The notes under the pieces: generated by a model
The model's database searches: none
Told to the model about the DNA's origin: nothing
What the model saw: only the letters and a program-made list of their open reading frames with translations
Position numbers and translations under genes: made by a program
Part shown: in pieces, positions 4,750 through 57,275 of the stretch
Numbering within the stretch: position 1 is the stretch's first letter
How the letters are laid out: every line of letters starts with the position of its first letter
From: Patiria pectinifera
Taxonomy: Eukaryota; Echinodermata; Asteroidea; Valvatida; Asterinidae
Assembly: GCA_029964075.1 (NCBI GenBank)
Contig: CM057136.1
Coordinates: forward strand, 10,478,001 to 10,542,000
Length of the DNA: 64,000 nt
Reading direction: 5' to 3'

Positions 4750-4930
4750 TTATTAACGTGCATTAGGCCCGTATATACCCATCGCGCTGCCTGGGTAAAA
4801 CGCAGAACTCTAAAATATAGGTCCTTCCCGTCTTCATTTTTCTGACTTGCAAAAACGGGGAACTCTAAAAGCAGAGGGTCTTTCCGGGTTAATTTTTCAA
4901 CGAAAACATTTCTAGGAGTTGTTGAGAATA
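4750..4930. repeat. Diverged satellite monomers, left edge
   Basis: The text contains the satellite landmark GGGTAAAACGC followed by GAACTCTAA and CCTTCCCG, but with many substitutions and indels compared with the array to its right. Strongly diverged edge monomers flanking a homogeneous core are usual for satellites maintained by unequal exchange. Confidence 0.7.
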
Positions 4931-7900
4931 TAATACACTTATCCAGATTAAAATTAAAAGATTGTGACGATTTTTAATATTGGTTCTGAAGCGATAAAGA
5001 TGCCCCCTCCTACAGCATCGGAGCACGTACGCGTATACTGCACATACCGTGCAATAGGCCTATTTGAACAAAAAACCTAGGTGGGTAAAACGCGGAACTC
5101 TCATTTTAAAAGGTCTTCCGGGGTGAATTTCCGAAAGAAAAAAAATCAGAGGAGTTGTTGAGAATATAATACACTTATCCAGATGAAAATTAAAACATTG
5201 TGACGATTTTTAATGTTGGTTCTGCAGCGATAAAGATGCCCCCTCCTACAGCATCGGAGCCAGTCCGCGTATACTGCACATACCGTACAATAGGCCTATT
5301 TGCACAAAAAACCAGGGTGGGTAAAACGCGGAACTCTCATTTTAAAAAGTCTTCCCGGGTGAATTTCCGCAAGAACAAAATCACAGGAGTTGTTGAGAAT
5401 ATAATACACTTATCCAGATTAAAATTAGAACATTGTGACGATTTTTAATGTTGGTTCTGCAGGGTTAAATATGCCCCCTCCTACAGCATCGGAGCACGTA
5501 CGCGTATACTGCACATACCGTGCAATAGGCATATTTGCCCAAAAACCAAGGTGGGTAAAACGCGGAACTCTCATTTTAAAAAGTCTTCCCGGGTGAATTT
5601 CCGAAAGAAAAAAATCACAGGAGTTGTTGAGAATATAATACACTTATCCAGATGAAAATTAAAACATTGTGACGATTTTTAATATAGGTTCTGCAGGGTT
5701 AAATATGCCCTCCTACAGCATCGGAGCACGTACGCGTATACTGCACATACCGTGCAATAGGCCTATTTGCACAAAAAACCTAGGTTGGTAAAACGCGGAA
5801 CTCTCATTTTAAAAGGTCTTCCCGGGTGAATTTCGGAAAGAAAAAAATCACAGGAGTTGTTGAGAATATAATACACTTTTTCAGATCAAAATTAACGGCT
5901 TGTGACGATTTTTAATGGTGGTCCTACATGGATAAACATGCCCCCTCCGACGCCATCGGAGCCAGTACGCGTATACTGCACATACCGTGCAATAGGCCTA
6001 TTTGCCCAAAAACCTAGGTGGGTAAAACGCGGAACTCTCATTTTAAAACGCCTGCCCGGGTTCATTTCCGGGAGAAAAAATCACAGGAGTTGTTGAGAAT
6101 ATAATACACTTATCCAGATGAAAATGAAAAGATTGTGACGATTTTTAATGTTGGTTCTGCAGGGTTAAATATGCCCCCTCCTACGGCATCGGAGCCAATA
6201 CGCGTATACTGCACATACCGTGCAATAGGCGTATTTGCACAAAAAACCTAGGTGGGTAAAACGCGGAACTCTCATTTTAAAAAGTCTTCCCGGGTGAATT
6301 TCCGAAAGAAAAAAATCACAGGAGTTGTTGAGAATATAATACACTTATCCAGATTAAAATTAGAACATTGTGACGATTTTTAATGTTGGTTCTGCAGGGT
6401 TAAATATGCCCCCTCCTACAGCATCGGAGCCAGTACGCGTATACTGCACATACCGTGCAATAGGCATATTTGCCCAAAAACCAAGGTGGGTAAAACGCGG
6501 AACTCTCATTTTAAAAAGCCTTCCCTGGTGAATTTCCGAAAGAAAAAAATCACAGGAGTTGTTGAGAATATAATACACTTATCCAGATTAAAATTAGAAC
6601 ATTGTGACGATTTTTAATGTTGGTTCTGCAGGGTTAAATATGCCCCCTCCTACAGCATCGGAGCCAGTACGCGTATACTGCACATACCGTGCAATAGGCC
6701 TATTTGCCCAAAAACCTAGGTGGGTAAAACGCGGAACTCTCATTTTAAAAAGTCTTCTCGGGTGAATTTCCGAAAGAAAAAAATCAGAGGAGTTGTTGAG
6801 AATATAATACACTTATCCGGATTAAAATTAGACCATTGTGACGATTTTTAATATAGGTTCTGCAGGGTTAAATATGCCCCCTCCTACGGCATCGGAGCAC
6901 GTATGCGTATACTGCACATACCGTGCAATAGGCCTATTTGCACAAAAAACCTAGGTGGGTAAAACGCGGAACTCTCATTTTAAAAGGTCTTCCCGGGTGA
7001 ATTTCGGAAAGAAAAAAATCAGAGGAGTTGTTGAGAATATAATACACTTATCCAGATCAAAATTAAAAGATTGTGACGATTTTTAATGTTGGTTCTGCAG
7101 GGTTAAACATGCCCCCTCCTACGGCATCGGAGCCAGTACGCGTATACTGCACATACCGTGCAATAGGCCTATTTGCCCAAAAACCTAGGTGGGTAAAACG
7201 CGGAACTCTCATTTTAAAAAGCCTGCCCGGGTGAATTTCCGAAAGAAAAAAATCACAGGAGTTGTTGAGAATATAATACACTTATCCAGATGAAAATGAA
7301 AAGATTGTGACGATTTTTAATGTTGGTTCTGCAGGGTTAAATATGCCCCCTCCTACGGCATCGGAGCCAATACGCGTATACTGCACATACCGTGCAATAG
7401 GCGTATTTGCACAAAAAACCTAGGTGGGTAAAACGCGGAACTCTCATTTTAAAAAGTCTTCCCGGGTGAATTTCCGAAAGAAAAAAATCACAGGAGTTGT
7501 TGAGAATATAATACACTTATCCAGATTAAAATTAGAACATTGTGACGATTTTTAATGTTGGTTCTGCAGGGTTAAATATGCCCCCTCCTACAGCATCGGA
7601 GCCAGTACGCGTATACTGCACATACCGTGCAATAGGCATATTTGCCCAAAAACCAAGGTGGGTAAAACGCGGAACTCTCATTTTAAAAAGCCTTCCCTGG
7701 TGAATTTCCGAAAGAAAAAAATCACAGGAGTTGTTGAGAATATAATACACTTATCCAGATTAAAATTAGAACATTGTGACGATTTTTAATGTTGGTTCTG
7801 CAGGGTTAAATATGCCCCCTCCTACAGCATCGGAGCCAGTACGCGTATACTGCACATACCGTGCAATAGGCCTATTTGCCCAAAAACCTAGGTGGGTAAA

Positions 7901-10900
7901 ACGCGGAACTCTCATTTTAAAAAGTCTTCTCGGGTGAATTTCCGAAAGAAAAAAATCAGAGGAGTTGTTGAGAATATAATACACTTATCCGGATTAAAAT
8001 TAGACCATTGTGACGATTTTTAATATAGGTTCTGCAGGGTTAAATATGCCCCCTCCTACGGCATCGGAGCACGTACGCGTATACTGCACATACCGTGCAA
8101 TAGGCCTATTTGCACAAAAAACCTAGGTGGGTAAAACGCGGAACTCTCATTTTAAAAGGTCTTCCCGGGTGAATTTCGGAAAGAAAAAAATCAGAGGAGT
8201 TGTTGAGAATATAATACACTTATCCAGATCAAAATTAAAAGATTGTGACGATTTTTAATGTTGGTTCTGCAGGGTTAAACATGCCCCCTCCTACGGCATC
8301 GGAGCCAGTACGCGTATACTGCACATACCGTGCAATAGGCCTATTTGCCCAAAAACCTAGGTGGGTAAAACGCGGAACTCTCATTTTAAAAAGCCTGCCC
8401 GGGTGAATTTCCGAAAGAAAAAAATCACAGGAGTTGTTGAGAATATAATACACTTATCCAGATGAAAATGAAAAGATTGTGACGATTTTTAATGTTGGTT
8501 CTGCAGGGTTAAATATGCCCCCTCCTACGGCATCGGAGCCAATACGCGTATACTGCACATACCGTGCAATAGGCGTATTTGCACAAAAAACCTAGGTGGG
8601 TAAAACGCGGAACTCTCATTTTAAAAAGTCTTCCCGGGTGAATTTCCGAAAGAAAAAAATCACAGGAGTTGTTGAGAATATAATACACTTATCCAGATTA
8701 AAATTAGAACATTGTGACGATTTTTAATGTTGGTTCTGCAGGGTTAAATATGCCCCCTCCTACAGCATCGGAGCCAGTACGCGTATACTGCACATACCGT
8801 GCAATAGGCCTATTTGCCCAAAAACCTAGGTGGGTAAAACGCGGAACTCTCATTTTAAAAAGTCTTCCCGGGTGAATTTCCGAAAAAAAAAATCACAGGA
8901 GTTGTTGAGAATATAATACACTTATCCAGATTAAAATTAGAACATTGTGACGATTTTTAATGTTGGTTCTGCAGGGTTAAATATGCCCCCTCCTACAGCA
9001 TCGGAGCCAGTACGCGTATACTGCACATACCGTGCAATAGGCCTATTTGCCCAAAAACCTAGGTGGGTAAAACGCGGAACTCTCATTTTAAAAAGCCTTC
9101 CCTGGTGAATTTCCGAAAGAAAAAAATCACAGGAGTTGTTGAGAATATAATACACTTATCCAGATTAAAATTAGAACATTGTGACGATTTTTAATGTTGG
9201 TTCTGCAGGGTTAAATATGCCCCCTCCTACAGCATCGGAGCCAGTACGCGTATACTGCACATACCGTGCAATAGGCCTATTTGCCCAAAAACCTAGGTGG
9301 GTAAAACGCGGAACTCTCATTTTAAAAAGTCTTCTCGGGTGAATTTCCGAAAGAAAAAAATCACAGGAGTTGTTGAGAATATAATACACTTATCCGGATT
9401 AAAATTAGACCATTGTGACGATTTTTAATATAGGTTCTGCAGGGTTAAATATGCCCCCTCCTACGGCATCGGAGCACGTACGCGTATACTGCACATACCG
9501 TGCAATAGGCCTATTTGCACAAAAAACCTAGGTGGGTAAAACGCGGAACTCTCATTTTAAAAGGTCTTCCCGGGTGAATTTCGGAAAGAAAAAAATCAGA
9601 GGAGTTGTTGAGAATATAATACACTTATCCAGATCAAAATTAAAAGATTGTGACGATTTTTAATGTTGGTTCTGCAGGGTTAAACATGCCCCCTCCTACG
9701 GCATCGGAGCCAGTACGCGTATACTGCACATACCGTGCAATAGGCCTATTTGCCCAAAAACCTAGGTGGGTAAAACGCGGAACTCTCATTTTAAAAAGCC
9801 TGCCCGGGTGAATTTCCGAAAGAAAAAAATCACAGGAGTTGTTGAGAATATAATACACTTATCCAGATGAAAATGAAAAGATTGTGACGATTTTTAATGT
9901 TGGTTCTGCAGGGTTAAATATGCCCCCTCCTACGGCATCGGAGCCAATACGCGTATACTGCACATACCGTGCAATAGGCGTATTTGCACAAAAAACCTAG
10001 GTGGGTAAAACGCGGAACTCTCATTTTAAAAAGTCTTCCCGGGTGAATTTCCGAAAAAAAAAATCACAGGAGTTGTTGAGAATATAATACACTTATCCAG
10101 ATTAAAATTAGAACATTGTGACGATTTTTAATGTTGGTTCTGCAGGGTTAAATATGCCCCCTCCTACAGCATCGGAGCCAGTACGCGTATACTGCACATA
10201 CCGTGCAATAGGCATATTTGCCCAAAAACCAAGGTGGGTAAAACGCGGAACTCTCATTTTAAAAAGCCTTCCCTGGTGAATTTCCGAAAGAAAAAAATCA
10301 CAGGAGTTGTTGAGAATATAATACACTTATCCAGATTAAAATTAGAACATTGTGACGATTTTTAATGTTGGTTCTGCAGGGTTAAATATGCCCCCTCCTA
10401 CAGCATCGGAGCCAGTACGCGTATACTGCACATACCGTGCAATAGGCCTATTTGCCCAAAAACCTAGGTGGGTAAAACGCGGAACTCTCATTTTAAAAAG
10501 TCTTCTCGGGTGAATTTCCGAAAGAAAAAAATCAGAGGAGTTGTTGAGAATATAATACACTTATCCGGATTAAAATTAGACCATTGTGACGATTTTTAAT
10601 ATAGGTTCTGCAGGGTTAAATATGCCCCCTCCTACGGCATCGGAGCACGTACGCGTATACTGCACATACCGTGCAATAGGCGTATTTGCACAAAAAACCT
10701 AGGTGGGTAAAACGCGGAACTCTCATTTTAAAAAGTCTTCCCGGGTGAATTTCCGAAAGAAAAAAATCACAGGAGTTGTTGAGAATATAATACACTTATC
10801 CAGATTAAAATTAGAACATTGTGACGATTTTTAATGTTGGTTCTGCAGGGTTAAATATGCCCCCTCCTACAGCATCGGAGCCAGTACGCGTATACTGCAC

Positions 10901-12955
10901 ATACCGTGCAATAGGCATATTTGCCCAAAAACCAAGGTGGGTAAAACGCGGAACTCTCATTTTAAAAAGCCTTCCCGGGTGAATTTCCGAAAGAAAAAAA
11001 TCACAGGAGTTGTTGAGAATATAATACACTTATCCAGATTAAAATTAGAACATTGTGACGATTTTTAATGTTGGTTCTGCAGGGTTAAATATGCCCCCTC
11101 CTACAGCATCGGAGCCAGTACGCGTATACTGCACATACCGTGTAATAGGCCTATTTGCCCAAAAACCTAGGTGGGTAAAACGCGGAACTCTCATTTTAAA
11201 AAGTCTTCTCGGGTGAATTTCCGAAAGAAAAAAATCACAGGAGTTGTTGAGAATATAATACACTTATCCGGATTAAAATTAGACCATTGTGACGATTTTT
11301 AATATAGGTTCTGCAGGGTTAAATATGCCCCCTCCTACGGCATCGGAGCACGTACGCGTATACTGCACATACCGTGCAATAGGCCTATTTGCCCAAAAAC
11401 CTAGGTGGGTAAAACGCGGAACTCTCATTTTAAAAAGCCTTCCCGGGTGAATTTCCGAAAGAAAAAAATCACAGGAGTTGTTGAGAATATAATACACTTA
11501 TCCAGATGAAAATTAAAAGATTGTGACGATTTTTAATGGTGGTTCTGCAGCAATAAAGATGCCCCCTCCTACAGCATCGGAGCACGTACGCGTATACTGC
11601 ACATACCGTGCAATAGGCCTATTTGCACAAAAAACCTAGGTGGGTAAAACGCGGAACTCTCATTTTAAAAGGTCTTCCCGGGTGAATTTCGGAAAGAAAA
11701 AAATCACAGGAGTTGTTGAGAATATAATACACTTATCCAGATTAAAATTAAAACATTGTGACGATTTTTAATATAGGTTCTGCAGGGTTAAATATGCCCC
11801 CTCCTACGGCATCGGAGCACGTACGCGTATACTGCACATACCGTGCAATCGGCCTATTTGCCCAAAAACCTAGGTGGGTAAAACGCGGAACTCTCATTTT
11901 AAAAAGCCTTCCCGGGTGAATTTCCGAAAGATAAAAATCACAGGAGTTGTTGAGAATATAATACACTTATCCAGATGAAAATTAAAAGATTGTGACGATT
12001 TTTAATGTTGGTTCAGCAGGGTTAAATATGCCCCCTCCTACGGCATCGGAGCCAATACGCGTATACTGCACATACCGTGCAATCGGCCTATTTGCCCAAA
12101 AACCTAGGTGGGTAAAACGCGGAACTCTCATTTTAAAAAGTCTTCCCGGGTGAATTTCCGAAAGAAAAAAAATCAGAGGAGTTTTTGAGAATATAATACA
12201 CTTATCCAGATTAAAATTAAAGGATTGTGACGATTTTTAATGTTGGTTCTGCAGGGTTAAATATGCCCCCTCCTACGGCATCGGAGCCAATACGCGTATA
12301 CTGCACATACCGTGCAATAGGCCTATTTGCCCAAAAACCTAGGTGGGTAAAACGCGGAACTCTCATTTTAAAAAGTCTTCCCGGGTGAATTTCCGAAAGA
12401 AAAAAATCACAGGTGTTGTTGAGAATATAATACACTTATCCAGATGAAAATTAAAACATTGTGACGCTTTTTAATGGTGGTTCTGCAGCGATAAAGATGC
12501 CCCCTCCAACAGCATCGGAGCACGTACGCGTATACTGCACATACCGTGCAATAGGCCTATTTGCACAAAAAACCTAGGTGGGTAAAACGCGAAACTCTCA
12601 TTTTAAAAGGTCTTCCCGGGTGAATTTCCGAAAGAAAAAAATCACAGGAGTTGTTGAGAATATAATACACTTATCCAGATTAAAATTAAAAGATTGTGAC
12701 GATATTTAATGTTGGTTCTGCAGCGATAAAGATGCCCCCTCCTACGGCATCGGAGCCAGTACGCGTATACTGCACATACCGTACAATAGGCCTATTTGCC
12801 CAAAAACCTAGGTGGGTAAAACGGGGAACTCTCATTTTAAAAAGTCTTCTCGGGTGAATTTCGGAAAGAAAAAAATTAGAGGAGTTGTTGAGAATATAAT
12901 ACACTTATCCAGATTAAAATTAAAACATTCTGATGATTTGTAATTTTGATTCTGC
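4930..12955. repeat. 234-bp satellite array with higher-order repeats
   Basis: About 34 head-to-tail monomers of about 234 bp. Landmarks recur in each monomer: TGTGACGATTTTTAAT, TATGCCCCCTCCTAC, ACGCGTATACTGCACATACC, GTGGGTAAAACGCGGAACTC and GAGTTGTTGAGAATATAATA. Monomer variants (for example GCATATTTGCCC with CCAAGG, or GCGTATTTGCAC) recur with a period of 1171-1172 bp (five monomers), and once of 1405 bp (six monomers), between about 6.1 and 11.0 kb. This shows higher-order repeat organisation. Many monomers carry a 72-codon open frame on the minus strand (for example 6360-6578, 7532-7750, 10108-10326). Because it is closed by a stop in every monomer and is absent from others, I regard it as incidental. 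Confidence 0.95.
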
Positions 12956-13080: not shown

Positions 13081-13494
13081 GCAAATAAAACATTACGGTC
13101 ATTCCATAATGTTACTTCGGCAGAATTCGTTCTGCAGCGGTACATTATCCCCCTATCAACTGTTTAAAACACGTGCTTCACAGAGCACTGAGTCTCAGCT
13201 GCACCCTTGGTTTGTAAACGGCATGTATCCCTGTACAGCATGTGTTCTGCACTGTTCCGCAAATACTACACACAATTATTATACGACGGCACAAACAGGT
13301 GGGAAATCTTTTATTTTCAATTTATTTAAGGGCAGATTATGACGATTTTGGGACTTAATAATGAGATTGGGTCCTTGCTGTACTTTGAAAGCCAGTATTT
13401 CATCTTAATTTAGTGTTTTATTACCAATTTTGCAGAGTTCCGCAGAGTTCTGCACGTTCTGCAAGTTCCGCGAAATACCAATTGCCAATTAATA

Positions 13495-13498
13495 CAGC
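13495..13498. repeat. Target-site duplication, left (CAGC)
   Basis: CAGC lies immediately before the transposon end TGTCACGCC. The same four bases follow the other end (GGCGTGACA) at 24747-24750. The exact match, together with perfect outer inverted repeats, defines the insertion boundaries. Confidence 0.85.
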
Positions 13499-13740
13499 TG
13501 TCACGCCCCAACTATCGCATCGGTCCCAACTATAGTTGGGCCTGTCCCAACTATAGTTGGGCCTGTCCCAACTGTAGTTCCACAGTTGGGCTGGCCCAAC
13601 TATAGTTGGGCCTGTCCCAACTATAGTTGGGACGGTCCCAACTGTAAGTTCCATTGTTGGGCTGGCCCATCTATAGTTGGGCCACTCCGATCTTTTTATT
13701 TTGCGGTGTCCCAACTATAGTTTACATTGATGTACAACCA
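13499..13740. repeat. Left terminus: clustered 16-bp palindromes
   Basis: The perfect palindrome CCCAACTATAGTTGGG and near variants occur about six times, separated by CCTGT, GGC or GGACGG spacers. The outermost 60 or so bases are mirrored at the right terminus (24655-24746), where three to four copies are found. Dense palindromes at both ends are candidate binding sites for a dimeric transposase and could extrude cruciforms. Confidence 0.85.
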
Positions 13741-14110
13741 TAAAACGTTCCCTACAGCTCTGATACACGTCTGACTTTACTGGGGACCACTGAAATTAGC
13801 TATTGATGGGGCGAATCTATAGTTGGGCCACCCCAATCTTTTTATTTTGCGGTCCCAACTATAGTGTACATTGTTGTACGATTATAAAACATTCCCTACA
13901 ACTCTAATACACATCTGACTTTACTGGGGACCAATGAAATGATCTATGGGTGGGGACCATCTGTAGTTGGGCCACCGCAGTATTTTTATTTGGCAGTCCC
14001 AACTATAGTTGACATTGATGTACGACTATAAAACATTCTCTACAGCTCTGCTTACATGTCCGACTTGGGACCTTTGACATTAGCTATGGGTGGGGCCCAT
14101 CTATAGTTGG
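13684..14110. repeat. Three subterminal tandem repeats of about 145 bp
   Basis: A unit containing TCTTTTTATTTTGCGGT, CCCAACTATAGT, ACATTGATGTAC, ATAAAACATTCCCTACA and CTGACTTTACTGGGGACC is repeated three times with starts near 13688, 13840 and 13982. Each unit carries another CCCAACTATAG-type half palindrome. The right end of the transposon lacks this block, so the two ends are asymmetric. Confidence 0.75.
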
Positions 14111-14345
14111 CCGGCCATGGCAATTTTTAAATTTTGCAAAATGTTGCTGGATAAGAAAACCCAGCAGCTGGACAACTCATCCAACTAGGCAGTACCACTA
14201 GCCCTGGTGGACTCCCTTTCCTCCCTACGTTACGGAGGGAGTCCTGAGTACACATGTGCCCACAACCGGACGAAAACACCTTGCCAATAATTCTTACCTA
14301 CAATTTTAATATTTTACCTTGTTGGAGAAGCTAATTTTTACGTCG

Positions 14346-14600
14346 TAGTATTCTATGTGTCCTTATCTGTTAGTACGCTGGGTTCAGGAATTCCATATGC
14401 GATGCTGACTGACGTCAATCAGGAAAATAAACTCGAAAGCATCGTTAAACTTGTACGTGTTTAGTCTCTATTCATCAGTTTCTCAGTGAGTCGTATGCGT
14501 AGCGCCCTCCGTGCTCTGCGTCCGTGCAGCGTGAATGCGCAGTGCGCACGCGCGATTCGCTTAGTAACCGCGCCCTCAGACGCATGCGCACTATACTTGT
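14346..14600. repeat. Inner inverted repeat, left copy (likely promoter)
   Basis: About 255 bp matches, in reverse complement, 24121-24394. Shared text includes GGTTCAGGAATTCCATATGC, TCAGTTTCTCAGTGAGTCGT, GCGCCCTCCGTGCTCTGCGT and CCCTCAGACGCATGCGCA. It is CpG-rich, ends about 125 bp before the transposase start codon, and its twin sits just before the helicase start. Conservation at both ends suggests a shared promoter. GCGCATGCG-type motifs resemble NRF1 sites, which is inference. Confidence 0.75.
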
Positions 14601-14726
14601 AGACGCGGTCGCTTCATCATTATTCAGGGCGCGACGTTCGTGTTTCAATTGAGCCTGTATCCAGCTTATTTTTGCCGTAGATTTCCAGGAAAAAATCAGT
14701 CTGTTGTTGTTTGTTAAGCGGCAATA

Positions 14727-17700
14727 ATGACTGCCGCATGTGCTGCCTGTGTCGGCTGCCACACTACGTCGTTTGAGGAGTCTGCATCTGGGCAAGGGTA
14801 CAGGCGGACGTCGGTAAAATGTTTGACGAGTCCGGGCACAATTGAGAAAGTGTTCGGTCAAGTTCTTACGCCTCAAGAATACCAAACACAATTCTTGTGC
14901 TCGGACTGTGCAAGGACACTCGTCGCACAATGTAAAAAAAAGAAGAGAGGAGCTAAAAAAAGACGGTACACGGCCGCTGCAGTGAACTGGAAGACCAGCG
15001 ACTCATCACCGGCACCCAAACTGACGAAGCGACTAGTGATGGCTGACAGCACCAGCTTCAAGGAAACTGCAAAAAAATATATCGACCAGTCAAAATACAT
15101 CAAGGCACTCCGCTGCTTAATGCGTGGAAGTAAAAAGGCACGTGTAGCCCTAAAGAAAATATGCGTCCAGCAAGTCAAAGAGGAGGTACCGTTTTTTACC
15201 ATAACATTTTATTTATTCAGTAAAATCAATGTAGAAGCCAACATGGCCTGAATTGAACCTTTATTTTATTGAAATATTTAACCAATACACACTGCCTCCC
15301 CTATGCCTTTTCTAAACAGCTAATTTGAATGGTGTCATGGTTAATTGAAAATAAACCCCTAATTGTATCTGGTGCCGATTTGAAATCGCCCTCTAAAAGC
15401 GAAAAAGAAGTCCTGTAAACGAATCTGAATTATATAGGCCTACACATAAAGTGCTAAATTTAATTGAACGAACTGAAATGAAAATGAAACGTATTATGTT
15501 CAGAGTGATTTTCAAATTCAGACGAAAATAAACGACCGATTTTCAGAAGCAAACGAATAGGCCAATTGTTTAGCAAGACCAAAATAATATTGAGCACAAC
15601 TTTCGTAAATTGTCAACGAACATTGTGGCCAACAAAAATAATTAACAGTGAGCACAACTTTTGTTAATTGCCAACGAACATTGTGGCCAATAATAATTGG
15701 TGGTCGTCAGCAAAATAACGTGTAATTATTGTCCTCTTTTTAAAGGGGAAAAAGGTCCGGAAGGGAAAACAAGGTGACCCGGGGGCCGGGGATGCTGGAG
15801 TTTTGGGCGGAGATCCTACGATACCGAAATTGGAGAGCTTTAGCTGGGCTGGTCTCATTGATGAAGCGCGGGCAAAGATGCCTCTACTCGTATCTGCAGT
15901 GGAAGCCTCACTCTCACCCAAGCTAAAACAGTAAGAATATACCCTGTTATGGTGTTGTTAAAAGATACTTTCTTAATCTGTAATTATTTTGTTTAAACTC
16001 TTACTGATATTATACTTGATCTCTCGAAAAAAAATCATGGTGTCAATACAGAAAACAACCAGATGGAAGAGACGGCATTCGAGAGAAACGGCTGGGGATT
16101 ATTCTTGCTGTCATCTTCTACACGAGAGCCCCACGCAAGTACAACTTCGTTCAAGGCGCCATTGGTGTGGAGCTATGGCGGCAAGGATGTTCTCAGAAGC
16201 TATTCCAGTCCCTGAACCATCTGGGGATTTCACAAGGAGTCCAAACATCTCGAAAACACGTCGACCAACTCGCCAACGACCATGACAATTGTCTTGTCAA
16301 GTGGAAATCTGCAGTAGAGGTAAAGTAGTATAGTATAATGTAAGCTTTCCTGACCAATTTGAAAGTCGAGCACAATGATGACGACACACTCATTCGTAGC
16401 AAATTGAATGCACACATAACCAACATTTACTACTAAAATGATCGTTCAATTCAGATATAAACGCATCGGATTACACATGTAAATCGTGTGGTTTAAAAAA
16501 AAAATCAAAATAAAATTTTATATTTGTGCATCCAAATTCGCTATAGCTTTCACATGCGTAAATTTCGACAGTGAAATGTTTTGTACTAAATGAAAGACGT
16601 TGTTTACTATCCTTCCTTTCTTCAATGATAGACCACTCACGATGCAAGACGTGGGAAAACAGCACGACGAAGGTTGTCTTTCAAGCAAGATCAAGGTTAC
16701 GGTGTTTGCTGGGACAACGTTCAGATAAATCCGCACCGTAAACATCAAGGCAAGCAAAAGAAGGCGGATTTCCTGTTGTGGGCCCTATCGTTCGCTTGCG
16801 GCAATAGGGTTCCGACACTGCACCTGAAGGATCCCAGTACCACCCCCGCTTCCCAGCTGATTTCAAGTATTCTCCCACAGCCCGCAGACTACGATGCATT
16901 GAGGGAGCTGATGGTCTTCTTGGTGATGCGGATACTTGTTAAGTACCTTCCCTTCTTGCAGTCCACGAAGAAACACATCCCCCGTCCCAAGCATCAGTAC
17001 AGCACCGAGATGACCAGAAAAAGCGAAGTGGTAAATTTGGGTATTCGCGGCTATTTTGAAACTTTTTCATTCCACTTCATTACTCAAATTCGTGTATAGC
17101 AATGTTTAGTTCTGTCCATTGTCAATTTTTATTTTATTTCAAGTAATGAAAACCCTGAGCACACACAATCGCCAAGGAGTATTCGATTGCGTCTTTTATC
17201 TGAGAAAACAAGTTCGTCTGTGTTGCACAATTTCATCATCATTTTCTTCAATATTTCGGCATTTTTAGTATCGATAGAATACATACGTGCATAATTATAG
17301 GCCATAATGTTGATGAGAATTATGATCCTCTTTTTTCTTTTCTTGTTTTTCATTCATTTATTGTTTTTGTTTTTTGATTGTATTTTCTTAAAAATACGTC
17401 TCAAGACTAATATTTGCTTGACTGTACATAACTTTGTATTATGCCGTTGCATTACAATGCTTTATGTATTGTGATCTATGGATGCTACCATTGTAAACAG
17501 CTATAAGGCGAATTCGATCAGCATTGACGAATATTCTTGAAGTTAGTAATTGGTTGACCAAAATTTATTGCATGATGAATGACGAAATTGATTTTGCCAA
17601 AAGCGTGCTATGTAATTGAGGAATTTGAATGTTATATAATTGAGTGAATTGGAATGGAAAACGTTTTTTTTTTCTTCTTCTTTTTTTTTTTAAATAGCCA

Positions 17701-20700
17701 GGAAAAATAATGCGTGACTATGGTGTCATTGTGTCTGATTGTATGTACGTAATTTCGAAGGCTGACGTCGCTCGGCATTACTCATTAATTTAGGTGAACC
17801 TTGGTGTTCTGGAGGTGAATCCTGCATCCACAGCTGGTGTAGTAAAAGTGATGGAGCATCTTCATGCCTATGTCCCTGAGCCCGACGGCCAAATATGTCC
17901 GATCTTGTGCAGTGGGGATGGCCTCAGCGTAGAAAGGATGACCCATGCAAAACAAGCCAGGGTTAACGGAGAAAGCAAGAAACAGCAACTACAGGGTTTA
18001 GTTGAGTGCCCTCAAGAATTTCATAAGGAGATACTGCTGTTACAGGTAAGTATGATGAACTATTATAATGCGCGAAATATGTTATTTAAAAATCGCTTTT
18101 TTTCAAGTCATGACATTTTCCAAACTGAGCGCATATTTTTATAATATACCGAATCTATTACAAAAAGAATGTTTGAATTAGCCTTTTTCTGTTTGGTAAA
18201 TAATGTTAAGAATGCAAAAATAGCGAAGAAATTCTAAACATTCACATAAAATCACGCGATGGCGTAATTATGACCCCACTTCAATTTGAACTCTCTTCCC
18301 AGGACACAATCAACAATCTGTATAAGGGCAGCAGTGTCGCCTCCAGAGGAAGTCTTGCTCACTTAAAGGATTTCTACAAACACCGATCTATGGCCACCGA
18401 TGTAAAGCAGAACGTTCAGCACGTATGGGATATGATTGAGGTATACATGCATGCAAGAAATACTGTTCTGACATTAATGACAAATTTGAGACTGATGGTA
18501 TTTGTAAAAGCTCGTCAAAGTAACGTTTCAGGTTGATGCATTCTTAACTGGCTCGCTTTTTCTTTCACAATATCCTTGTCAGTTCTGCGCGGAGGCATAC
18601 GTCACGCTCTTTGCCATGACCGCAGCAAACATGGAGACAGTAAACGACGTGCCTCTCAACTTTCCAGTCAATGGGAACATGGAAGACAAGACTGAATTTG
18701 CGCGAAAGATAGCTGGAGCTGCAGTGGACTTCTGTTGGTCGGCCACGAAAAGTGAGGACATCAGGAAAGTCTACGCAAGTACCAAGTCATCAGCAAGCAC
18801 CCCGGGAGAACCTTATGGTTTCTGCTGTTGTGACGAAGGCAAGGATTGTAATACCATCATTGCAATCTAATAATTTTTCTAATGTACGAGGATTGTTTTT
18901 AAGTATACACAATGTATTAATTCGTTCACCTACACAGAAACTGAGGAAAAAATGATCCTGTGTTGCAGCCACCAGTGTCCTCATGTATGGTACCATCTCT
19001 CCTGCATGGGGCTTGATGAGCCACCTGCTGATGACTGGTACTGTAGTAAAAAGTGCGACGAAGATGGGAGCTACATTTATTGCATGTGTCACCGGCGGAA
19101 GGGAGGTGAGATGGTGCAGTGTGCTCTGAAGCAGGACTGTCGTCGACACGAGTGGTACCATCGGTCTTGTTTGTCTGAAAACAATTTCCCAGGTAAATGT
19201 ATACGGCGCATTTTCACAATGAAGTTAAGAAGTGCTCACGGTGAAAGTTTCAAGTTCATGCTTTTTGTTTCTTCTTGCTCCATTTAGATTTGTGGTTTTG
19301 CTGCGATGACTGTGCGCTTGGAAGTGAAGATGACGATTCTGTCCAGAATTACACCAAGGCACTAATGTGGCGCTGTTTAAACCATCTTGCGCGAAGATGG
19401 GCAGTCAGACATGGTGATGGCCAAACAATGACGTCTCATTGGAAAATGGACCTGATAGAGTTCTGGACGTTCGGACATTACAAGTACCTGATCATGGCCC
19501 AGCAATTTTTGACAGGTTGGTGTGTTAATATTCATGTGCAGATTGGTGTCAATTTCACTCAAATGCGAAAGGATGGTGATGTTCATAATTTTCACAATTA
19601 AATCAACGTGATGCATGACTGCATGGGCTCCAGGTTATGCTAAATCTGGATTTCAAACTTAACAAATAAATCTTGTTGTCGAGTCAGAATAAAAGCACCT
19701 TTGAAATATCAGACCAGTCCTGTTCTGCTGAATCCCATTCGATTCATACCCAGGTGTGAGTGGATTTCTTCCCGAACGTCTTCGTCATGACATGACATGG
19801 AACAGGGTGGCTAATGTCCACGGCATGGAAGGGGAAAATATTGGACTGGACCTTCTCAATGAATTCCTAAACAATGAATTCAAAGGTAAGGCCACCAAGA
19901 AAAAGGTCCTTCTAAATAATATAGTTTCTTGTATCCAAACAAATAAGATGGCCTGACGTTCTGATCTATATAGAATATCTTACTCAAACGCCTTCGAGGA
20001 AGACTCTGCTGGGATCAAAACGTCAGGCCGTTTTCATTTTGTTGGAGCAGTTTGCAGCAGTTTCATGAATTTTCAATATTTTATTTCAGTTACAATGAAA
20101 TCCATCGAGCTCATTTCAAATGGCGCTTGTCTGGCTGGACGTATGACAATCCCTTGCTTCCAGAGGTCACAGGTTCGAACCCCGCTCAAGTAATTTCTTT
20201 CGTCAAGTTCAACGTAATATTTGTTTTTTTTTTTTTTTACAAGATATGCTGCTGAGATCCCGGGGGAAATACACAGAACAACAGGTAAAGCGTTGTTCGC
20301 GAATGAGCGGAGCCTTTGGAAAACAGATCGACCGACTATTAACAGAGGGCGGACTGGGTGATCTTCTTTCCAGCAAGAATTCCTCCAAGAAAACCGCCAA
20401 CAAAGATGTGCTGGATTTTGTGAGTGAATTTAAGAAAGATGCACTCTTTGATTACCACCCTGGTCGGCAGCATCGTGGATTCGAAGACTTCACATACAAT
20501 ACCGGCATCAAAGCACCCACTCGACTCGGAAAAAGGCTCCTCATGACGTCCCAGGAGATGGACAGGTGGAAATTGGTACGTTTACAAGACAAAGAAATCA
20601 ACTGTGCTCGTTATAATGTTCTGCAAAATGGTTGCATTGAGAAGAGAAAATTCATCACGGATAACTTTTTTGACTTACAAAAAGAACCCCACCTCTCAAA

Positions 20701-20797
20701 AGACCGTAAAGACTTAAAAGTATAGCATTCAGATTTATTATGAAACATAACAATCCTTTTAACATATTCATTTTTGTTTCAGGTCATAGAATCATAA
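14727..20797 (+). CDS. DUF6589/Academ-like transposase with tandem PHD fingers
   Basis: My twelve-exon model is 14727-15185, 15746-15930, 16052-16319, 16632-17030, 17794-18045, 18303-18440, 18583-18838, 18938-19192, 19288-19515, 19754-19885, 20244-20575 and 20783-20797. Phases agree at every junction and total 2919 nt, giving 972 residues plus stop. Introns are GT-AG except intron 7, which uses a GC donor at 18839; the next GT would create a stop. Residues 5-61 hold a C-x2-C...C-x2-C zinc-finger-like N-terminus, followed by a basic stretch. The core resembles DUF6589 transposase-like proteins. Candidate catalytic aspartates are D332 (WDNVQ) and D479 (SGDGLS), by analogy with DDE enzymes. Residues 648-692 and 701-746 form two Cys4-His-Cys3 PHD fingers (WYHLSC, WYHRSC). 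The C-terminus contains the RGKYTEQQVKRC block typical of this family. It converges on the helicase gene, with stops 14 bp apart. The exact superfamily is uncertain; a transposase role is well supported by the element ends. Confidence 0.85.
18839..18937 (+). other. GC-AG intron within the PHD-encoding region
   Basis: The exon ends ...GACGAAG and the intron begins GCAAGG, matching the AG|GCAAG context of rare GC donors. It ends at TACACAG before AAACTGAGG. Splicing here gives Asp-Glu-Glu-Thr and joins the first zinc-binding cysteines (648-650) to the rest of PHD finger 1. Using the next GT (near 18846) also gives the right phase but reads TAA. Confidence 0.7.
19949..20034. mobile_element. Small foldback insertion in transposase intron 10
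   Basis: GGCCTGACGTTCTGATC at the left and GATCAAAACGTCAGGCC at the right form imperfect inverted termini around a core of about 50 bp containing ACTCAAACGCC and TTCGAGGAAGACTCTGC. It lies inside an intron, so it does not disturb the frame. It is probably a short MITE. Confidence 0.5.
20095..20195 (+). mobile_element. tRNA-related SINE fragment in intron 10
   Basis: An A-box-like stretch (TGGCTGGACGTATG) is followed by a B-box-like GGTTCGAACCCCGC. The same B-box text occurs in the SINE head near 26,330-26,415. It ends about 50 bp before the acceptor of transposase exon 11 and does not interrupt coding. Confidence 0.45.
20734..20739 (-). promoter_or_regulatory. Helicase polyadenylation signal candidate
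   Basis: AATAAA on the minus strand, about 70 bp past the helicase stop codon. It lies within the last intron of the transposase gene, so the two transcripts would overlap at their 3' ends. A plus-strand AATAAA at 21386-21391 lies inside a helicase intron and could serve the transposase. Confidence 0.45.
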
Positions 20798-20811
20798 ATT
20801 CCTACTCACCT

Positions 20812-23800
20812 CTACTCTTCCGTGCAAACAGTGCAACAGTGGGAGCCGATCACCTTGGCACGCTCATTCATGCCGGCTATCTTTAGATGCTCGAGCACTG
20901 CTTGTCTCATGCAGTTGCCTCCTTTGACTGTGCTGCATAGCTGTATCATGGTACTGTCAGTATACCGCTTGTTGATGGACCGCGGGAATATGTAGAGCTT
21001 TCCAAACCCTTGCCTCCCATCTCTCGCGCACCTGCCAACTTCTTGCCGATAGCTGAGAACATCTTTAGCCGGTCCCCAATGGAGCACAAACTCCACATCA
21101 TCTGCTTGGATGCCCAAACCAAAAGCCATGGTAGCCACAACGCATCGGAGTGGAGATGTCTTTTGGCAAAATGATGACGTAACACGCCTTTGGCTTTCGT
21201 CGTCAGTGCTACCATGGTACATGTCAATTATTCTATTATGGACACTGTGTACAGGGTCCACCCAAGCCATCTCCCCCAGACTCGTCATCAGCCACGCATA
21301 AATGCGGGAGACTTCGTTCACTTGTCTGCAAAGAAACAAAACAAAGAGTAGTTGACATTGTTTTTGAAAGACACCCGCATAATGCAATAAAAAAATATGT
21401 GATAGAAAACAATTTACCTTGCGTAAATTATCGCCTTTGGTGCGTCCTTTCCCCTCTTTAGCAGAGCACAATACCAGGCCAAGTGTTCTTCAACATTGGC
21501 GTTTTCCACGTTGAACATCTCCAACTTTATATTGGGTCTGAAAGCACATTAATGAATGAAATAAAAGTTAAAGGCAATGTTGTAATAATGATACGCTTTG
21601 TGCTTTAAATGCCTGCAGGTTAAAGGGTTTTTTCTTTCGTCAAGGACTAGAAATAAAAATGAGTTAAACTCTTTTTATGCATCCAGGAAACTCTCATTGC
21701 AATCTTGCCTGTCCGGAAGCACTGCTATGATGTCAAATGTAGACACCTCAAGCTGCAACATATCGATGATCTCCTCCATTATCGCCTGTGTTGCCGTTGC
21801 CGTAAGGCAGACGACAGGCTGGCTGGAGAGAATTGACCGAAGCCGATAAATATTGAGGTACTCCTCACGAAATGAGCCCCTGCGGAAAGAAATAAGGACA
21901 GTTTCAAATTTGAGATGAGGAAAGCTCATTTCGATAGACAAAAAGGCGAAACAAGATCGCCATCAATCAAGCTGAAGTTGTGATTGGGCCCTATGGTGAG
22001 GAATCTGAAAGTGGTTTATCGGCATGATGCATGGGCACTTGAGAAGTTTCAAGTTGAGTGTCGCAGTGCAGTAAAAATTTGTGCGAAATAAAAAGGTAAA
22101 CTTATGTCAATTAACAAAAAAAAATGGGAAGTTGCAGGAACGCAAAAGGATCAAATAAAACCGCGTAAATTTCACAGTGCAATCGAAAGTATCATTATTG
22201 ATGCTTCAATAGAAGACCTGACACCCCCGATTTTACCATCTGGTCATGCAGTGGGCTTCGTCTATGACTAAAGCAGTGATACGATCACGCCATCTCTTGA
22301 TTGCCAACCACCATGGCTGTTGCAGTGCTGCTTCTGGAGATGTAAATACTAACTGATACTCTCCTTTGCTGATTCCTAACAACGATAAAAACACAAACAG
22401 AAACGAGAACACTTATGGTTGTTATTAAAATATCAAATACAGGTTGCAGTCCCTGGCTCAAAGGCATTTGATAGACGAGTTCAAAATTATCCGGCACATA
22501 CTTTATATCTCACTTACAATTAAGAATGCTTTCAATAAGTTGTCCGAAACCCCGCCGTCTTAATTGTGATTGGATTGTTCTGCCCTTCCCTTATCCCTAA
22601 TTGGCTGCAAGTTTCGTGGAGCGTGGTCACTGCACGGTCGAGTAACAAGAGGGCGCACTCATTCTCACCTGTGAAAAATGGGCGTGACTCGCACCAAAAT
22701 ACATGCGCAGTAGGAACTCTCCATGGCGCTTGATGCCAAGACTATTTATAAATAATGACATCATAAACAGGGATGACTGCAGGCCGTCACAGTGTTGATC
22801 CAGCCAAGTTACATAATCCCTTAAAAGTAATAATTCAAATTACGACACCAAACTTACCATCTTTAGTAGCATTGTCCATTTCTTTAGCCTGCAAAATGGC
22901 CGCACATTTGACTCCCACGGCAGACCACCTGCTCACTTGGTCCATCATTAGTGAACGAAGGGGGGATATCACCAATGTGATGTGCTTTACCCCTGGTTTG
23001 ATCTGAGGAATTTATGTGTGAGCACTCGTTACGAATAGGACGAAACATGCGGCTTACCCGAATTAAAGATCTGGAATAAAATTTCCACGGCTAATGGATT
23101 GGATATTTACTGGGCCTATTTGACGTTCGCGATTTTCCCCTTAAACTTTACTTGGACAGAACAAAATCAATGCAGTAGCCTACAGACACTAGCTCCCGAA
23201 AAATAAAAAATCGCCTGAACTCTTCCCGAACTAGACCGGGAAAAACATTGTCCACAAATTGTCGCGCGATTGTTGTGTGTGTGTGTGTTTTTTTTTTGTG
23301 CGTTTTTTTAAAAGGTTTCCTTACACCCTGACTCTTCTGTTATTTTCCTGGCTGGTATAGCTAATTTTCTATTCAGTATTGTGTCCATATATTGCTGAAC
23401 CAACAACCCCTGATGACGCATGTGCTTAGTATTCCACAGCCATGCAGTTAAAATTCGAGGCTAAATAGGACAGAACCACCAAATGTCTTTGAACTGAAGT
23501 CCAATAAATAGACCTCAGCTCCCACCAGTTCAGTGTATTCAATTCAATTCAACTCAATTCAATTCAAGAAAACATTTATTCCATACTCCTTTGGGGGCGA
23601 CAGCCCCCCCCCCCCATGAAACCTCGTCGCCCCCCAGTCGCCCCCACCGAGATTTTGAGTTTCTAAAAAAAAATATCATTGATCTACACGACACCTCCCC
23701 ATGAAAATGTTCCAGCACCCACTAAAAAATTCCTGGCTACGCCACTGAATAAATGTTAAACTTATTTCGATGTAGGCCTATGTACAAAATTTATGTAGTT

Positions 23801-24046
23801 CCAGCTCATCTCATCCATTAAAGAAAACTTAAAGTCTGGCCTACTATCACAACATTATCAAAGACTCACTTTGTCCATTATTGGTGAGAGCCATCCATAA
23901 CAATCGCTTTTGCCAAAACCTGTCGGTAGCAATCCAAAAACGTTTTTGGATTTCTTCACCACAGACTCGATCGCTCGCATCTGTTCTAATTTCAAAGAAT
24001 AAGATACACCGTGTTCCTTAAGAACAACATCAATTACTTCGTCCAT
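20812..24046 (-). CDS. RecQ-like DNA helicase of the transposon
   Basis: My six-exon model on the minus strand is 24046-23870, 23002-22858, 22375-22237, 21879-21709, 21537-21418 and 21325-20812. Phases match throughout and total 1266 nt, giving 421 residues plus stop. Introns are GT-AG except the fourth, which has a GC donor (CAG|GCAAGA). Superfamily 2 RecQ motifs appear in order: Q motif near residues 18-26 (LKLEQMRAI), Walker A 41-47 (PTGFGKS), SPLRSLMMDQV, DEAH at 146-149, LTATATQ near 179-185, AFGLGIQ near 318-324 and QEVGRCARDGRQG near 345-357. A cysteine-rich C-terminus (GGNC...HCCTVC) resembles the RecQ zinc region. No catalytic motif is broken. Inferred role: unwinding DNA during excision or repair of the element. 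A captured host RecQ gene is the alternative, but location inside the inverted repeats and convergence with the transposase argue it belongs to the element. Confidence 0.88.
22140..22236. other. Helicase intron segment
   Basis: Part of the intron between the DEAH exon and the exon starting at 21879. AT-rich with no further exon candidate. The donor on the minus strand is GTAAAA directly after AGATG. Confidence 0.5.
23270..23770. repeat. Simple repeats and retroelement-like remnant in helicase intron 1
   Basis: A short GT run (23275-23290), an AATTC-type minisatellite (about 23537-23570), a C-run within GCGACAGCCCC, and a phrase ending GGCTACGCCACTGAA at about 23735-23750 lie between the first two helicase exons. 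No coding exon is seen. Confidence 0.5.
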
Positions 24047-24120
24047 ATCGTAAGGAGATCAATGCGACTCTGTCTGGTTGAAACTTTTCTTGTAAATTAT
24101 TCACGCAGCGGACTAAAAAA

Positions 24121-24394
24121 AGTATAGTGCGCATGCGTCTGAGGGCGTGGCGCATGCGTCTGAGGGCGTGGTTACTACGCAAATCGCGCGTGCGCACTGC
24201 GCGTTCACGCTGCACGGACGCAGAGCACGGAGGGCGCTACGCATACGACTCACTGAGAAACTGATGAAAAGCGACTACAAACACGTACAAGTTTAACGTT
24301 GCTTTGGAGTTTATTTTCCTGATTAACGTCAGTCAGCATCGCATATGGAATTCCTGAACCCAGTGGCCAATAGATAAGGATACATAGAGTATGT
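24121..24394. repeat. Inner inverted repeat, right copy (likely promoter)
   Basis: This is the reverse complement of 14346-14600 with a few substitutions. It carries an extra tandem copy of a unit of about 22 bp, GCGCATGCGTCTGAGGGCGT. It ends about 75 bp upstream of the helicase start codon, on the coding side of that gene, so it is positioned as the helicase promoter. Confidence 0.75.
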
Positions 24395-24654
24395 TGGCGT
24401 GAAATAAGCTTCTATAACGAGGTAAAACATAACAAAACTCTGGTAAAAATGTTGGGGTGGTTTCATGTAAAAAAGTCTTGTCCTGGACGTTAGTCGTATT
24501 GCAATGAAGACTTCGTCCAACCTGGGCTAGCAGTACCACGTGACCGGCCAGCCTTGCGGCATGCATGCATGCACGACGAATACACGGTGCCAGCGCCGCG
24601 GAACATTTAATCCAACAAAATCTATCAAGCATGAACCATCCGGCGCAACTCCAG

Positions 24655-24746
24655 TCCTAACTATAGTTGGGCCGACCCAACTGCCGCACTATAGTTGGGA
24701 CAGTCCCAACTATAGTTGGGACCGATGCGATAGTTGGGGCGTGACA
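24655..24746. repeat. Right terminus of the transposon
   Basis: Contains CCCAACTATAGTTGGG palindromes and ends ACCGATGCGATAGTTGGGGC then GTGACA, the exact reverse complement of the left tip. CAGC follows at 24747-24750. The right terminus lacks the 145-bp tandem units found at the left. Confidence 0.85.
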
Positions 24747-25384
24747 CAGCTATCTACATTCATTGACCATTGTTGACATTCTAAATATATTCACCAATCA
24801 CCACACGTTGCTGTGAAGATCCATCAGTTGGTTCTAATGACAACTAGTAGTACAGATCTTAAATTAAACGGTCCATAAGGAAGTTGTAATCCATGTGTAA
24901 ACATGTGTAAATTAAAAATATTTCGAAGATTGCTCACCTCTCTTTGCAATCACAAGTGCATGTACATGTACAACCGGAGAAAGGTACTTATGATAATGCG
25001 AATTGTGTCAGACGATATGAATTATGCAATACGTCTTGAATAATTTTTTGGTTGCATGCATGGCACATGTATTGCATTATTCATTTTTTTTCTGTGACGT
25101 AATATAACTTGCAGCGACGACGTAAGCCTACTTCCACTTCTCCAGTTGCGATACTGCTGCCACTATTGAGTCAGCATCATATCAGCACGGAACAGTCGAC
25201 ATTAAAATTAGGTGGGCCATTTTGACAAACCATCAAGTTCAGTATAACTAATCAAACTTTAATCGTCGATGCAGAATTAAAATTATTTACAAATAAATAG
25301 GTGTGGTTTTTAAGTTACAAATCTTGTATTTTGGACAAAAAAAAATCCGGTTTTGTAAAATATAACATGTTCATATACCCGTTT

Positions 25385-25449: not shown

Positions 25450-51912
<26,463 letters not shown>

Positions 51913-53084: not shown

Positions 53085-55560
53085 CATATTTTTGACTGAT
53101 TTCATCCCAAATTTTCGTCAAAATTTCATTTTGAAAAGCACATCTGTCCAGATATCGAATTGGAATGTGTTCTAGGGTCCTTTAGGCATCTTTCTAGCAA
53201 GTTTGAAGCAATTTGATTTTTTGGCCAAAATTGAAGAAAAAAAACACAAGGGGTACCCCTTACTTTTTTATCAAAATTTGGCCAAAAATTGACTTTTCCT
53301 CCAACAATGCAGAAATGTCTTTGGAGGTAAGAGTAGCCTTAATCAACCTTTAATCACCCAATAACTTGAAGATTTGGGAAAAAAATCATTCTTTATGACT
53401 GATTTTACACCAACTTTTCGTCGAAATTTCATTTTGAAAAGCACATCTGTCCAGATATCACATTGGAATGTGTTCTAGGGTCCTTTAGGCATCTTTCTAG
53501 CAAGTTTGAAGCAATTTGATTTTTTGGCCAAAATTGAAAAAAACACACAAAGGGTTAAGCCTTACTTTTTTATCAAAATTTGGCCAAAAATTGACTTTCT
53601 CTTAACAATGCAGAAATGTCTTTGGAGGTAAGAGTAGCCTCAATCAACCTTTAGTCACCCAATAACCTGAAGATTTGGGCAAAAACTCATCGATTTTTAT
53701 AGAAAAAAATCATTCTTTTTGACAGATTTTACCCCAAATTTTTGTCGAAATTTTATTTTGAAAAGCACGTCTGTCCACGTATCGAATTGGAATGTGTTCT
53801 AGGGTCCTTTAGGCATCTTTCTTGCAAGTTTGAAGCAATTTGATTTTTTGGCCAAAATTAAAAAAAAACACAAGGGGTAAGCCTTACTTTTTTATCAAAA
53901 TTTGGCCAAAAATTGACTTTTCTCCAAACAATGCAGAAATGTCTTTGGAGGTAAGAGTAGCCTCAATCAACCTTTAATCACCCAATAACTTGAAGATTTG
54001 GGCAAAAAATCTTCGATTTTTATAGAAAAAAATCATTCTTTTTGACTGATTTTACCCCAAATTTTCGTCGAAATTTCATTTTGAAAAGCACATCTGTCCA
54101 GATATCGAATTGGAATGTGTTCTAGGGTCCTTTAGGCATCTTTCTAGCAAGTTTGAAGCAATTTGATTTTTTGGCCAAAATTGAAAAAAACACAAGGGGT
54201 AAGCCTTACTTTTTTATCAAAATTTGGCCAAAAATTGACTTTTCTCCAAACAATGCAGAAATGTCTTTGGAGGTAAGAGTAGCCTCAATCAACCTTTAAT
54301 CACCCACTAACTTGAAGATTTGGGCAAAAAATCATCGATTTTTATAGGGAAAAAACACATTCTTTTTGACTGATTTTACCCCAAATTTTCGTCAAAATTT
54401 CATTTTGAAAAGCACATCTGTCCAGATATTGAATTGGAATGTGTTCTAGGGTCCTTTAGGCATCTTTCTAGCAAGTTTGAAGCAATTTGATTTTTTGGCA
54501 AAATTGGAAAACAACACAAGGGGTAAGCCTTACTTTTTTATCAAAATTTGGCCAAAAATTGACTTTTCTCCAAACAATGCAGAAATGTCTTTGGAGGTAA
54601 GGGTAGCCTCAATCAACCTTTAATCACCCAATAACTTGAAGATTTTGGGGGAAAATCATCGATTTTTATAGAAAAAAAATCATTCTTTTTGACAGATTTT
54701 ACCCCAAATTTTCATCGAAATTTCATTTTGAAAAGCACATCTGTCCAGATATCGCATTGGAATGTGTTCTAGGGTCCTTTAGGCATCTTTCTAGCAAGTT
54801 TGAAGCAATTTGATTTTTTGGCCAAAATTGAAAAAAACAACAAGGGGTAAGCCTTACTTTTTTATCAAAATTTGGCCAAAAATTGACTTTTCTCCAAACA
54901 ATGCAGAAATGTCTTTGGAGGTAAGAGTAGCCTCAATCAACCTTTAATCACCCAATAACTTGAAGATTTGGGCAAAAAATCATCGATTTTTATAGAACAA
55001 AGTCATTCTTTTTGACTGATTTTACCCCAAATTTTTGTCAAAATTTCATTTTGAAAAGCACATCTGTCCAGATATCGAATTGGAATGTGTTCTAGGGTCC
55101 TCTAGGCATCTTCCTAGCAAGTTTGAAGCAATTTGATTTTTTTGCCCAAAATTGAAAAAAAAACAAGGGGTAAGCCTTACTTTTTTATCAAAATTTTGCC
55201 AAAAATTGACTTTTCTCCAAACAATGCGGAAATGTCTTTGGAGGTAAGAGTAGCCTCAATCAACCTTTAATCACCCAATAACTTGAAGATTTAGGCAAAA
55301 AAAAAACATCGATTTTTATAGAAACAAAATCATTCTTTTTGACTGATTTTACCCCAAATTTTCTTCGAAATTTCATTTTGAAAAGCACATCTGTCCAGAT
55401 ATCGGATTGGAATGTGTTCTAGGGTCCTTTAGGCATCTTTCTAGCAAGTTTGAAGCAATTTGATTTTTTGGCCAAAATTGAAAAAAAAAACAAGGGGTAA
55501 GCCTTACTTTTTATCAAAATTTGGCATTTGATTTTTTGGCCGAAATTGAGAAAAAAAAAC
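53085..55560. repeat. Tandem array of about 320 bp, eight copies
   Basis: GAAAAGCACATCTGTCCAGA recurs about every 303-326 bp (near 53137, 53440, 53760, 54085, 54408, 54737, 55057 and 55380), followed by GGAATGTGTTCTAGGGTCC, TTTGAAGCAATTTGATTTTTTGG and CAACCTTTAATCACCC. Copies are about 90 percent similar by eye. No long frame. Confidence 0.92.
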
Positions 55561-57207: not shown

Positions 57208-57275
57208 TTCCTGGCCCAAGTTGGGACCGTCCCAACTGAAGTTGGGACCGATGCCTAAATTGGGCTTCACAAATC
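57208..57275. mobile_element. Relic of an Academ-like transposon terminus
   Basis: GTTGGGACCGTCCCAACTGA, then AGTTGGGACCGATGC and TTGGGC..CACA follows the same order as the right terminus at 24690-24746 (GTTGGGACAGTCCCAACTAT...GACCGATGCGATAGTTGGGGC). It is a diverged, solitary end. Confidence 0.65.

Follow-up and report, generated by a model that had tools for sequence, protein, structure and literature searches.

Several known systems bear on the element described below. In AcademX, the nuclease-bearing lineage of Academ transposons, the nuclease is XPG. Kolobok elements have TTAA as their target site, and in the RAG1/RAG2 system, for which ProtoRAG is a related comparison, the PHD finger of RAG2 reads H3K4me3. 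Another Academ lineage, AcademH, carries a helicase and occurs in animals and fungi, according to passages of PMC10799480 and PMC10045372 that cite Kojima (2020, Mob DNA 11:15). Target duplications are given as 9-10 bp for AcademH and 3-4 bp for AcademX, a difference suggested to be tied to the helicase or to the nuclease (excerpt of Kojima and Bao, PMC10045372). Helicase-bearing Academ elements being thus already described in animals and fungi, at least in these excerpts, the element presented here is of a known kind; it is AcademH-like, and formal membership of AcademH is not claimed for it. Like AcademH as the citing papers portray it, it is a DNA transposon with terminal inverted repeats that encodes a transposase and a helicase. 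What may set it apart, as far as these descriptions of AcademH allow the comparison, is a tandem pair of ING-type PHD fingers lodged inside the transposase.

A complete element with bounded ends

We consider it very probable that the stretch delimited in Table 1, which is part of the 64-kb of DNA analysed as a whole (the window), is a DNA transposon of AcademH-like type, complete and autonomous, that encodes a helicase. Its ends are bounded by inverted repeats and by flanking direct repeats, arrays of palindromes lie at the termini, and two open genes converge between them. A preliminary description had proposed a complete, coding-intact Academ-like transposon with a helicase, and the bounded ends, the two open genes and the RecQ-type character of the helicase support this proposal well.

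Table 1. Coordinates of the element and of its features, numbered from the first letter of the window
Feature	Position	Strand	Remarks
Whole element, ~11 kb	13499..24746	.	bounds by the 4-bp duplication reading
Alternative element bounds	13500-24745; 13502-24743		6-bp reading; 10-bp reading
Left CAGC	13495..13498	.	inside longer direct repeat ACAGCT 13494-13499
Right CAGC	24747..24750	.	inside ACAGCT 24746-24751
Left outer terminal inverted repeat	13499..13562	+	61/64 positions shared with the right end
Right outer terminal inverted repeat	24683..24746	-
Left subterminal array	13525..14111	.	16-bp palindrome CCCAACTATAGTTGGG and 144-bp tandem repeats 13669-14049
Right subterminal CCCAACTATAGTTGGG copies	24656..24720	.	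1 exact at 24705, 2 with 1-2 mismatches
Inner inverted repeat, left arm	14272..14589	+	separated by 137 bp from the transposase start codon
Inner inverted repeat, right arm	24150..24464	-	separated by 103 bp from the helicase start codon
Transposase gene (likely), 12 exons, 972 aa	14727..20797	+	open spliced frame, DUF6589 match
Transposase exons 1-6	14727-15185, 15746-15930, 16052-16319, 16632-17030, 17794-18045, 18303-18440	+
Transposase exons 7-12	18583-18838, 18938-19192, 19288-19515, 19754-19885, 20244-20575, 20783-20797	+
Tandem ING-type PHD fingers	18817..19316	+	aa 646-695 and 698-747; end of exon 7, exon 8, start of exon 9
RecQ-type helicase gene, 6 exons, 421 aa	20812..24046	-	WRN/RECQL5/RecQ/BLM matches, TIGR00614
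Helicase exons	24046-23870, 23002-22858, 22375-22237, 21879-21709, 21537-21418, 21325-20812	-
Fragment like the element's right terminus	57219..57254	+	36 bp, 92%, E 1.5e-7 (blastn)

The left tip, TGTCACGCCCCAACTATCGCATCGG, begins at 13499, and its inverted copy ends at 24746. The outer inverted repeats had been called perfect, which holds for their first 42 bp but not beyond, as mismatches are met at positions 43, 60 and 61, and then from 65 onward. Next to the tips are copies of the palindrome CCCAACTATAGTTGGG, of which the window holds five exact copies, four at the left end of the element (13525, 13546, 13595 and 13616, with three more copies at 1-2 mismatches) and one at the right end. 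When up to two mismatches are tolerated there are 11 copies (7 left, 3 right and 1 at 57231), against 0.02 expected from shuffled sequence. Inside the element these palindromes are confined to the neighbourhood of its ends, and we may see them as candidate sites for transposase binding.

The length of the target duplication matters here because AcademH and AcademX are reported to differ in this respect. The duplication had been read as an exact CAGC; while CAGC does flank both tips, this is not the only reading that fits. The longest exact direct repeat compatible with symmetric tips is ACAGCT (6/6), and the tips then become GTCACG, each one base inward; a 10-bp duplication would match at 8/10 positions, with CACGCC (CACGCCCC) as tips and transitions as both differences. 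Two window positions drawn at random would show such matches with a chance of 0.0050 for 4/4, 0.00044 for 6/6 and 0.00075 for at least 8/10. A single copy leaves the 4-, 6- and 10-bp readings side by side. The excerpted reports give 9-10 bp for AcademH, to be set beside an exact 4-6 bp, or 8/10 over 10 bp, found here; 4/4 CAGC would fit the duplication of AcademX, though the flanks allow the 6/6 reading as well. If the true duplication were 4-6 bp, the reported link between helicase and 9-10 bp duplications would be broken by this element.

Compared by blastn with the rest of the window, the element has one clear counterpart, the fragment at 57219-57254 that resembles its right terminus (next best place, E 0.001), and no second end for this fragment was recognised. 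The fragment points to the presence of related termini at other sites of the host genome. Searching the rest of the window by tblastn with the transposase gave nothing at E <= 1. Further afield, 25 bases of the terminus had no exact match in a viral contig collection, and tblastn, which reaches close relatives only, recovered no relative of the transposase or of the helicase among the viral contigs (0/5 pattern-matched stretches for each) and none of the transposase in a genome contig collection (0/11); a phage collection likewise held no relative of the transposase. Because these collections are viral and prokaryotic, the absence of relatives from them says little.

Two convergent genes and the age of the copy

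The two multi-exon genes, 18 exons in all, had been described as uninterrupted frames of 972 and 421 codons, and reading them again gave the same result, 12 and 6 exons, each frame followed by a stop. They are convergent, the stop of the transposase gene ending at 20797 and that of the helicase gene lying at 20812, with 14 bp between them. Among the 16 introns (11 + 5), 14 are GT-AG and two GC-AG (18839-18937 on the forward strand, 21708-21538 on the reverse). Homology supports the splicing, as the DUF6589 match (aa 382-886) covers exons 4-11 of the transposase and as the alignment with WRN (helicase aa 15-370) touches all six exons of the helicase. For aa 1-381 of the transposase, the model rests on openness and splice signals; this part of the protein has weak zinc-ribbon-like Pfam matches alone, the best with E 0.0013-0.011, below the curated cut-off.

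Upstream of each gene lies one arm of an inner inverted repeat, identical at 279/311 aligned positions. CpG dinucleotides are frequent there, with an observed/expected ratio of 1.52 in the left arm and 1.40 in the stretch 24047-24465 that holds the right arm, as against 0.81 in the whole window. The arms are putative promoters, forming a matched pair that faces inward. Each contains, on one strand or the other, a single mismatch-free copy of YGCGCAYGCGCR (at 14543 and 24185), which we take to be an NRF1-like site motif; since matches with 1-2 mismatches are scattered across the window, these sites are a lead only.

How old is this copy? Intact coding had been put forward as a sign of recent mobility, and we simulated neutral decay, with 2000 runs per setting, either with indels at 0.1 per substitution or with substitutions only. 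With indels, the share of runs in which neither frame was lost fell from 30% at 0.2% divergence to 9% at 0.4% and to 0.3% at 1%; with substitutions only, it was 14.8% at 1% and 2.6% at 2%. Once neutral divergence exceeds about 0.5-1%, two open frames are thus improbable when indels are included, so that the copy is probably young, and the simulation suggests that the element was inserted recently. Recent mobility is thereby made likely, for frames that were, it should be said, picked for their openness; because the gene models were chosen in this way, they could hide small lesions within introns.

The strongest rival account is that the copy is complete but inert, its transposon structure being correctly read and its mobility lost in this host. 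If the duplication is of the 10-bp AcademH type, two of its ten positions already differ, which points to some age, and the arms of the inner repeat differ at 32/311 aligned positions, a divergence that may, however, be older than the insertion. Set against this are the exact 6-bp repeat, the 42 bp of identical terminal repeat and 1,393 open codons, together with the simulated decay just given, which weighs less heavily if substitutions alone are counted. An inert copy keeps, in our view, a substantial minority share of the probability, and a young, coding-intact element remains the preferred reading.

The transposase and the helicase

The 972-aa protein matches Pfam DUF6589 between aa 382 and 886 with E 9.9e-36 and 123.7 bits; no other Pfam model matches it at E <= 1. 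We take DUF6589 to be the Academ transposase; a literature search for DUF6589 returned no mention of it. Models of DDE or RNase H type in Pfam found no match in the protein, at E <= 1 when taken whole or at E <= 5 when taken in pieces, and no catalytic triad was recognised. Judged by this homology, the DUF6589 protein is likely to be the transposase of the element.

The second protein resembles RecQ helicases. In the PDB it matches 46 distinct sequences at E <= 0.001, the best being WRN (2.8e-38), followed by RECQL5, bacterial RecQ, RECQL4, BLM and RECQL1, and it has weak matches to a few DEAD-box RNA helicases and to YprA. The TIGR00614 model (RecQ family) gives E 1.7e-59 and 201.8 bits; as this score lies under the curated cut-off of 219.8, the helicase should be seen as RecQ-type but divergent. 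It contains PTGFGKS, DEAH, CLTATAT and QEVGRCARDG, presumably motifs I, II, III and VI, and it reads WG-SFR where WRN has WGHDFR, a stretch that we assume to be the aromatic-rich loop. Alignments with RECQL1 extend to aa 415, into a C-terminal cysteine cluster, and because the protein ends six residues further on there is no room for the RQC or HRDC domains of RecQ helicases. The helicase distinguishes the element from AcademX, as does the lack of a Pfam match to the XPG nuclease model at E <= 1 in the two modelled proteins, to which that scan was confined among the reading frames of the element.

A tandem pair of PHD fingers within the transposase

The less ordinary feature of the element, and the part most worth following, is the pair of fingers that interrupts the DUF6589 region; like the CpG-rich inner inverted repeat, it does not figure in the preliminary description. 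When the full protein is the query, the first finger (PHD1) matches YNG1 with 6.1e-9 and the second (PHD2) matches ING2 (chain 9m4s) with 2.2e-5; taken alone, they match ING1 with 1.6e-9 and ING2 with 1.8e-6, respectively. The C4HC3 zinc ligands are present in both, in an ING-like sequence, while the Pfam PHD models stay below threshold on the region of both fingers (best E 0.029). The two halves of DUF6589 that flank the pair correspond to positions 12-240 and 269-395 of the profile, and deletion of the PHD stretch leaves the same profile positions covered, with 124.8 instead of 123.7 bits. Measured against the DUF6589 consensus, the pair is thus an insertion.

In ING3 the methyl-lysine cage consists of Y8, S15, M19 and W31 (PMC5000080). 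The counterparts, by our own mapping through alignments, are F/T/M/W in PHD1 (via the ING3 alignment) and Y/K/M/W in PHD2 (via those with ING4 and ING5): a phenylalanine replaces the cage tyrosine in the first finger, a lysine replaces the cage serine in the second, and Trp-47 is kept in both. The aspartate that contacts Arg2 (Asp-23) has become C in PHD1 and A in PHD2. Because the cage is partly kept, it is plausible from the residues alone that the fingers read H3K4me3.

Among the matches listed for a literature search combining 'Academ' with 'PHD', no title dealt with PHD domains in Academ transposases, and in excerpts of PMC10799480 the only PHD domain mentioned belongs to a host fusion protein. 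It is tempting to go one step further, tentatively and with the balance of probability against us: a helicase-bearing Academ-like lineage may have built an ING-type PHD pair into its transposase, steering it to H3K4me3 chromatin, in a parallel to RAG2 that would have arisen independently. As in RAG1/RAG2 and ProtoRAG, a recombinase system would be associated with a PHD finger; unlike in RAG1/RAG2, there are two fingers, of ING type and within the transposase, and this transposase matches DUF6589, not the Transib/RAG1 type. There is also a likeness to piggyBac and the domesticated PiggyMac and Tpb2, which are transposases with a cysteine-rich cross-brace zinc domain, the domains of PiggyMac and Tpb2 contacting histone H3 (excerpt of PMC8086355); the domain of PiggyMac, as described there, is not a canonical PHD, whereas the two fingers found here are ING-like and sit within the DUF6589 region.

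One could also suppose that the helicase, and perhaps the PHD fingers too, are captured host sequences devoid of any role in transposition. The helicase does resemble cellular RecQ proteins and the fingers cellular ING proteins, and the PHD segment is absent from the DUF6589 consensus; yet published accounts make a helicase the defining trait of the AcademH lineage (PMC10799480 and PMC10045372, in excerpt), and both genes are placed behind matching inner repeats and both are still open. Capture without function is unlikely to our mind.

Other readings of the locus

Much less probable is that the element is not an Academ but a RecQ-bearing Kolobok, either KolobokH or the Kolobok type whose helicase is encoded by the opposite strand. 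The combination of a transposase with a RecQ helicase is common to KolobokH, Kolobok-1_CCri and this element; in KolobokH, RecQ lies downstream of the transposase, and in the red-algal Kolobok-1_CCri it is encoded by the complementary strand, an arrangement like the present one (PMC9587614, in part). Several points speak against this reading: the flanking repeat is CAGC or ACAGCT, not TTAA, the transposase has DUF6589 as its sole Pfam match at E <= 1, and KolobokH is stated to be restricted to fungi (same excerpt of PMC9587614). Least credible of all is a host gene pair, made of a domesticated transposase and a RecQ helicase with repeats flanking them by chance, for although both frames are intact, each tip combines the inverted repeat with a direct repeat, the palindromes of the element are found only near its ends, and a related terminus-like fragment is present elsewhere in the window.

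How the element might work, and why it matters

For the AcademH-like transposon that we favour, the following scenario can be proposed. The inner repeats would act as matched, inward-facing promoters driving both genes. The DUF6589 protein, as an Academ-type DDD/E transposase, would bind the terminal palindromes, excise the element and insert it elsewhere, a few bases of the target being duplicated in the process. Meanwhile the PHD fingers might read the H3 tail, most likely H3K4me3, tethering the complex to active chromatin, and the RecQ helicase could open the ends or process the gap left by excision or integration. A whole, coding-intact copy would provide practical starting material for work on the role of the helicase and on the control of duplication length. 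Should the PHD fingers indeed read H3K4me3, chromatin targeting would be part of the transposase itself, which bears on the evolution of RAG-like recombination and on integration tools.

The surroundings of the element

A satellite array spans 4914-12955, about 0.5 kb to the left of the element; its 234-bp unit recurs 34 times (94% matches), and it was also scored with a two-unit period of 469 bp. In a second array, at 53378-55525, a unit of 323 bp is present 6.6 times (94% matches). Some 1.6 kb to the right of the element is a tRNA-Ala (GGC) gene (26337-26409, reverse strand), and an inverted repeat at 33912-34436, with arms of 193 nt (95%), holds one tRNA-like sequence per arm, in opposite orientations. 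Three very similar open reading frames of 144-147 aa follow on the reverse strand (34878-35321, 38323-38766 and 41791-42225), and their spacing of about 3.4-3.5 kb suggests tandem duplication; one of these copies, compared with Pfam, had no match at E <= 0.01. On the forward strand, the frame at 48446-48877 encodes a portion of the NAD-binding domain of D-isomer 2-hydroxyacid dehydrogenases (PF02826, E 2.2e-15) and is probably an exon of a host gene, presumably resembling animal GRHPR. Long inverted repeats of 110-138 nt (79-89%) are found at 46993-47236, 51491-51733 and 60098-60207, the first two flanking the dehydrogenase exon, and they possibly represent another transposon family.
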